A stretch of DNA of 64,000 nucleotides from a virus. The notes below the pieces were generated by a model, which had not been told where the DNA came from, did not search any database, and saw only the letters and a program-made list of their open reading frames with translations. Made by a program: the position numbers and the translations under genes. The stretch is from IMG/VR virus record IMGVR_UViG_3300022074_000013, positions 1 to 64,000 of that record; one strand, 5' to 3'. Shown one piece after another: positions 894 to 52,399 of this stretch; positions within the stretch are counted from its first letter, which is position 1; every line of letters begins with the position of its first letter.

Positions 894-1097
894 TTATCTC
901 CTTTGATTATATTTGGCTTGTTCATTCTTCTGCCGTTCCTGTTCTTCTTTTAGGAACTGCAATAACAGCATAATATAAATCTCCCTTTCCCATGGCATCA
1001 TATTTTCAAGTTCTTCCAAACTGTAGTTATGATGTTGCATCAACTGAAAGTTTGTATTGTAATAATTCAATACAGACTCATGCGAAAGGCATACTAA
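894..1097 (-). CDS. -1 frame extension of gp26 (putative frameshifted tail assembly chaperone)
   Basis: This open frame of 67 codons follows gp26 in the -1 frame and has no convincing start of its own. The only internal ATG (21 codons in) lacks a ribosome binding site, and no GTG is in frame before it. Reading can enter from gp26 by a -1 slip on an eight-T run directly before the gp26 stop, giving a 305-residue fusion. The extension carries a compact acidic/aromatic motif (residues about 24-45: NYSLEELENMMPWEREIY) and a basic, Gln/Glu-rich tail. The arrangement copies the G/GT tail assembly chaperone pair of lambda-type phages, which also lies ahead of the tape measure gene. The frame and run are seen; the frameshift is inference. 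Confidence 0.6.
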   Translation of the reverse strand, partial: LVCLSHESVLNYYNTNFQLMQHHNYSLEELENMMPWEREIYIMLLLQFLKEEQERQKNEQAKYNQRR

Positions 1098-1810
1098 AAA
1101 AAACTTTGTAGGCCCTCCAAGGTTCTACTTTGTTCTTTTCCACATGTGTTACATTTGTAACTCGCATCATAAAAAATCTTTGGCATATCATCAAAATATT
1201 CACCTAGTTTTTCAATCTGTGGGAAAGTTAAGTTATCCACAAATTCACTAAGTTCTTTCTTTGATACGTCATCTGCATCATATACAGATTCACTATCAAA
1301 TATTTCAGTGATACATGCCTTCAACATTTCAATAGGTTGTTGGTTGGAATCAATCTTTTGAACGTCTTCCATAAGATTCCAATCGGGATATCTTAACACA
1401 ACACCTAGTTCATCGGTAATCATAATTCTAGGTTCTACACCTTTTGGTTTACTACACTGTACTTCATCTAGATTTACAGTGACTTCACCACTGCCATTAC
1501 ACTCTGCTTCTTGACAAGTTAGATTAAGTTTAACTGTTTCACCTACTGATACTGCTCTAATTTTAATGAACAGATATTCAATGTCAAACATAGGAAGTTT
1601 TTCAACGTCCAACCATTCGTTTTCACTGAATGATGTTACTGCCTTAATCATTTGCTTTATAGAAGCAAGTGACCGACTTTGGTCTTCACCCTCTTTCGCA
1701 ATTACTAAAACCTTTTGTTCCTTAACAAGAAACGGTCTAAATGTTACTTCACGTCCGTCACTTGGCAAGGCGCACTTATAAGTAGGTGCACTTTGTATTG
1801 GTAATGCCAT
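1094..1810 (-). CDS. 26: gp26-like baseplate hub / tail assembly protein
   Basis: A 238-residue protein resembling the T4 baseplate protein family (T4 gp26, 208 residues). After a short N-terminal strand it has a helical segment. Two Cys pairs follow: CQEAEC near residue 104 and CNTC near residue 218. They look like halves of a zinc-binding site. It ends in Ser-Phe-Phe on the T-run that precedes the stop. In T4, gp26 is a hub protein; in siphophages the equivalent protein is a chaperone that coats the tape measure. The start has GAGGAAA a few bases upstream. It lies 26 bases after the tube-initiator-like gene and appears co-transcribed with it. Confidence 0.75.
   Translation of the reverse strand: MALPIQSAPTYKCALPSDGREVTFRPFLVKEQKVLVIAKEGEDQSRSLASIKQMIKAVTSFSENEWLDVEKLPMFDIEYLFIKIRAVSVGETVKLNLTCQEAECNGSGEVTVNLDEVQCSKPKGVEPRIMITDELGVVLRYPDWNLMEDVQKIDSNQQPIEMLKACITEIFDSESVYDADDVSKKELSEFVDNLTFPQIEKLGEYFDDMPKIFYDASYKCNTCGKEQSRTLEGLQSFF
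1096..1103 (-). other. Eight-T slippery run, candidate -1 frameshift site
   Basis: On the minus strand the gp26 codons AGT TTT TTT are followed at once by the stop TAG, giving eight consecutive T. A tRNA pair on TTT TTT can slip back one base and re-pair perfectly, and the next codons in the -1 frame are open for 67 residues. I did not find an obvious stimulatory hairpin just downstream, but did not fold the region rigorously. Confidence 0.55.
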
Positions 1811-52375: not shown

Positions 52376-52399
52376 CCCCAGTTCGCTGGGGTTTTTTTT
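52376..52399 (+). terminator. Rho-independent terminator 1 after gp23
   Basis: CCCCAG, loop TTCG, CTGGGG, then eight T, 29 bases after the gp23 stop. It ends the head gene block. Confidence 0.9.

Follow-up and report, generated by a model that had tools for sequence, protein, structure and literature searches.

gp26 and the frame downstream of it in a marine T4-like virus probably encode two forms of a tail assembly chaperone through a -1 ribosomal frameshift

The window analysed here (64,000 nucleotides, positions 1 to 64,000 of IMG/VR record IMGVR_UViG_3300022074_000013) derives from a 94,775-base record of a marine virus with T4-like structural genes, for which megablast found no near-identical named phage. 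On the minus strand, gp26 occupies positions 1810-1094 and encodes 238 residues in the zero frame, the putative short form of a tail assembly chaperone, matching PF12322 (T4_baseplate; E 2e-58) and PHROG 150 (E 3e-65). Its 3' end reads CTA CAA AGT TTT TTT TAG, with the stop codon at 1096-1094 and a run of eight Ts at 1103-1096, as the first-pass annotation had described. Within this run lies the candidate slippery heptamer T TTT TTT (1103-1097, minus strand). A slip of one base back at this site would enter an open -1 frame of 67 codons plus TAA (1097-894, minus strand, with the TAA at 896-894), and so give a predicted fusion of 305 residues; the lengths previously reported for the open frame, the fusion and the shorter protein are all correct. 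The extension would form the C-terminal domain of the long form and corresponds to the gp51 module. A Shine-Dalgarno (SD)-like GGAGGG is found at 1118-1113 on the same strand, 9 nt upstream of the slip site. The sole other eight-base homopolymer in the window is TTTTTTTT, at 52392-52399 on the plus strand.

The extension is followed on the minus strand by a gene for a membrane-type protein of 128 residues (892-506; PHROG 10198, function unknown), which lies outside the frameshift. Its longest open reading frame would begin within the extension, at 925; the start is nevertheless most likely the ATG at 892, since the SD sequence AAAGGAG that precedes it fits this position. Next comes the 5' part of a tape-measure-like gene (501-1, minus strand), cut by the contig end. 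The complete copy in a near-identical contig (L001) encodes 697 residues and matches tape-measure PHROGs with E values of 5e-8 to 2e-5; matches to a tape measure PHROG are also found downstream of the locus in HTVC008M. Thus, a tape-measure-like gene does lie downstream, as initially proposed, but it is not adjacent to the extension, the 128-residue gene being placed between the two.

To what extent is this arrangement shared? In a tblastn search, 1,692 phage records matched the gp26 part and 600 the extension; in the best-scoring relatives the two match as separate pieces. The extension occupies the -1 frame in each of 13 named phages inspected and in 78/78 of the IMG/VR loci that reach the junction (out of 80); because one of the search patterns was the extension motif, loci having an extension were favoured, though not any particular frame or heptamer. 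Together with the window and named phages, these make a set of 90 loci of the frameshift type, 68 of them non-redundant at 90% nucleotide identity. An alignment of relatives had been suggested as a check, and in all 90 loci the run is retained, the -1 frame holds the extension and a T-TTT-TTN heptamer stands in frame at the gp26 stop or shortly upstream of it. The site search required TTT-TT within the last 24 codons and left the first base of the heptamer free, and this base is a T in every locus. Among the 68 non-redundant loci the variants are TTTTTTC (31), TTTTTTT (28), TTTTTTA (8) and TTTTTTG (1). Seven sequences have no such site, namely six records of the T-even type (gp26 or gp51) and one Ackermannvirus.

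Two distant loci deserve mention. Klebsiella phage Magnus (Ackermannviridae; L096, 3200-3440) has a gp51-like extension after gp26, again in the -1 frame, and its junction, GAG ATT TTC ATT TAA, holds no T-TTT-TTN heptamer. The very distant gp26 of the jumbo Agrobacterium phage Atu_ph07 (L100, 3560-3840) ends in CAT TTT TTC GCA TGA, with the -1 frame open.

The conservation of the heptamer exceeds what the encoded amino acids would bring about. Given these residues and the codon usage, it is expected in about 43% of loci and is observed at the junction in 68/68, whereas of the 62 other FF dipeptides in these genes, 8 are coded by the heptamer. Away from the junction, the 15,706 remaining gp26 codons contain 14 in-frame copies of T-TTT-TTN. 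Given the relatedness of the loci, these counts are not independent, and no joint p-value is claimed. Homopolymers are prone to sequencing error, and the two frames could in principle be a single open reading frame broken by such an error or by decay of the gene. This reading, an assembly error included, is refuted by the relatives: the same arrangement is common to 90 loci, isolate genomes among them, both parts are under purifying selection, the 99% identical L001, from a separate metagenome, has the identical run of eight Ts, and loci at about 80% identity retain it. We consider an artefact or a decayed gene practically inconceivable here.

The run could also act at another level, with RNA polymerase slipping on the Ts and inserting an extra U, and the fusion then being translated from a minority of altered mRNAs. 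In the window itself the run is eight Ts long, and one added T would put the extension in frame. Efficient transcriptional slippage, however, generally requires longer runs than six or seven Ts, and 40 of the 68 non-redundant loci have six Ts only and a further 15 seven only. Moreover, an SD-like element at ribosomal spacing would have no role in such a process. Ribosomal slippage is therefore favoured, on account of the 40 loci with six Ts only, and a transcriptional origin of the fusion appears very improbable.

The extension behaves as a protein-coding sequence in the -1 frame from the slip site onward. With E 8e-27 it hits PHROG 634 ("baseplate hub assembly catalyst"), the family of gp51 in T4-like phages, and it also matches the C-terminal end of the gp26 PHROG 150. 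Over the 18 codons after the heptamer, no -1-frame stop occurs in the 90 loci, whereas the zero frame is stopped in 90/90 and the +1 frame in 88/90. Over this stretch, pN/pS is 0.39 in the -1 frame versus 1.27 and 1.76 in the other frames (1,362 pairs).

These data bear on the possibility that gp51 is a separate small gene, translated from an internal start or by re-initiation after the gp26 stop. A separate gp51 is annotated in HTVC008M, S-PM2, P-SSM2, phiN3, ME01, Melnitz and Sf-CH8, and 51 of the 68 loci share an ATG, the commonest one, at codon 21 after the site. Yet the conserved stretch of 18 codons lies upstream of this ATG and evolves as protein in the -1 frame. Furthermore, among 115 ATG or GTG candidates in the first 22 codons of the 68 non-redundant loci, none has an anti-SD pairing of -6 kcal/mol or better, compared with 58% of gp26 starts; the earlier statement that the extension has no credible start of its own is thus borne out. 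The gp51 of T-even phages, considered below, is in addition a continuous fusion across exactly the same junction. Because candidate starts have no SD and -1-frame purifying selection acts before the commonest ATG, an independently started gp51 fails to explain the data and was rejected as the general explanation, there being only a very slight chance that it is correct. In Vibrio phage nt-1 (L089, 2490-2520) an ATG overlaps the gp26 stop (TAATG), and T-TTT-TTC is kept too. Coupled re-initiation could add product in nt-1, the one clear case in which it is plausible.

The public records examined do not depict the gene as a single unit. In L084, L085, L087, L088, L092, L099 and L111 and in L086 and L112, the extension is given as a separate truncated gp51 or omitted, and no joined gp26-extension CDS was found in the frameshift-type annotated records examined. 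Since these records separate or omit the extension, many public gp51 annotations are probably wrong.

Which signals might assist slippage? Just before the site, anti-SD pairing averages -6.8 kcal/mol, compared with -0.9 (sd 1.0) along gp26 (12-nt window, 68 loci), and this position has the strongest pairing along the gene. The best SD-like hexamer lies 9-11 nt from the heptamer in 42/68 loci, and GG at -11/-10 is invariant. The pairing is stronger than in synonymously resampled sequences (mean -7.0 versus -5.4), with the encoded glycine and its neighbour accounting for part of the excess. Stimulation of -1 frameshifting by an upstream SD has been described at spacings of 9-14 nt, dnaX being among the examples (PMC5009743). 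The pattern suggests that GGAGGG probably stimulates slippage in the window phage. No conserved downstream RNA structure was detected, with no consensus pair in 10 loci and a z of -0.58 for the window.

The relationship to the T4 group provides additional clues. The T-even phage RB32 has one gene for gp26 (208 aa) and another, divergent one for gp51 (249 aa). In profile comparisons, the frameshift-type short form matches T-even gp26 (E 9e-31), the fusion matches T-even gp51 from end to end (E 9e-32) and the extension alone matches gp51 201-254 (E 1e-11). T-even gp26 and gp51 also match each other (E 2e-21), while the controls gp25, gp27 and gp28 gave no match to the fusion. Pfam likewise assigns residues 1-201 of gp51 to the gp26 family (E 4e-55). 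Judged from these similarities, gp26 and gp51 are paralogues. T-even gp26 retains the "GLKEFF" end, coded GAG TTC TTT, and the slippery site is gone; the T-evens thus appear to use two genes where the window phage would frameshift. In a phylogenetic tree of gp26 and gp51, the T-even gp26 and gp51 sequences each form one group on long branches, which neither dates nor roots the duplication.

Predicted structures are consistent with this correspondence. The AlphaFold2 model of natural gp51 (pLDDT 88) has a gp26-like domain followed by helices at the position of the extension, and the model of the window gp26 (pLDDT 87) matches other gp26 models in BFVD. Neither sequence nor fold comparison gave a significant relative in the PDB. 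Among solved tail chaperones, the gp26 model has no significant match (HK97 gp13, 2ob9: E 2.6, TM 0.33 by target), and none of these appears among the matches listed for the gp51 model. From the gp26/gp51 homologies, the loss of the site in T-evens and the gp51 model, it follows that the two-gene and frameshift states should make equivalent protein pairs. The initial proposal that T4 gp26 belongs among the tail chaperones stands with regard to homology with T-even gp26 and gp51; the link is not new, however, and T-even gp26 is without the slip site.

A further T4-group protein, gp28 (PF11110; 3539-4072 in RB32, L081), whose gene immediately precedes that of the tape measure, gp29, seems to be distantly related to gp26. 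The hhalign score of gp28 against gp26 is 41, whereas 60 column shuffles reached 20.6 at most; RB32 gp26 also matches PHROG 1140 (E 9e-4), and neither gp51 nor the marine short form was matched by gp28. We tentatively put forward a scenario, perhaps slightly less probable than its negation, in which an internal SD and T-TTT-TTN set the ratio of short to long product at an ancestral T4-like locus, the T-evens lost this signal as duplication gave rise to gp26 and gp51, and gp28 may be one more copy that has diverged.

Taken together, every sequence-level check that the first-pass annotation proposed supports its frameshift reading of the locus, and gp26 with its -1 extension is very probably one gene for two forms of tail assembly chaperone. 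The majority of ribosomes would terminate at the gp26 stop and release the short form of 238 residues. A minority would pause on T TTT TTT, probably aided by GGAGGG, 9 nt upstream, pairing with the anti-SD, whereupon both tRNA-Phe would slip one base back and the 67 further codons would be read, giving the long form of 305 residues. By analogy with lambda G/GT, the common N-terminal domain may coat the tape measure protein, while the extra C-terminal domain of the minor form may recruit tail tube subunits, both forms leaving thereafter. The rate of slippage, the stoichiometry of the two forms and their binding partners would likewise be expected to resemble those of the lambda system.

If so, the orphan "gp51" of marine T4-like phages would be the frameshifted end of gp26 and not a small gene, and the classical T4 "hub assembly catalyst" would find its place in the chaperone scheme known from lambda G/GT. 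A conserved element of six bases and a site of seven bases also make the ratio of short to long form open to experiment.

The principle has precedents. A 2016 review still presented T4 as the exception to G-T frameshifting (PMC5009743), and in a review of T4, gp26 and gp51 are described as hub assembly chaperones, gp51 being needed for assembly and absent from the particle (PMC3004832). Vladimirov, Gautam and Davidson (2022, Virology 566:9-15), as cited in the PRFect paper (PMC10885494), reported T4-like phages with one short and one long gene in place of a frameshift, and, as cited elsewhere (PMC12846349), polyT slippery signals in T4-like TAC-N genes. To the extent relayed by these citing papers, frameshifting in T4-like phages is essentially already published, and the window phage represents a further case of a known system, because both the short and long genes and the polyT signals have been cited for T4-like phages. 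A prior description of the SD-like element or of the similarity between gp26 and gp28 was not found in the open-access papers searched, and both may be unreported.

The proteins in the window phage would be the same as in T4-like phages, the short form being gp26 and the long form gp51; in T-evens they are separate genes with no slip site, whereas here one gene with a -1 frameshift would suffice. A -1 frameshift at the 3' end of the short open reading frame, with a conserved GTTTTT motif, is also known for the chaperone of Vandenendeviridae and Andersonviridae (PMC12846349), phage families other than that of the window phage. With E. coli dnaX the locus shares an SD-like stimulator upstream, the 9-11 nt spacing of the 42 loci falling in the published range, but dnaX combines an A heptamer with a downstream stem-loop, whereas here the heptamer is of Ts, no stem-loop is conserved and a stop codon lies at or adjoining the slip site. 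Finally, lambda G/GT is alike in its short and long products with a common N-terminal part, the -1 slip at the end of the short open reading frame and a locus before the tape measure gene. It differs in slipping on G GGA AAG (PMC7618472), compared with T TTT TTT here, and the window phage has one extra gene between the extension and the tape measure.
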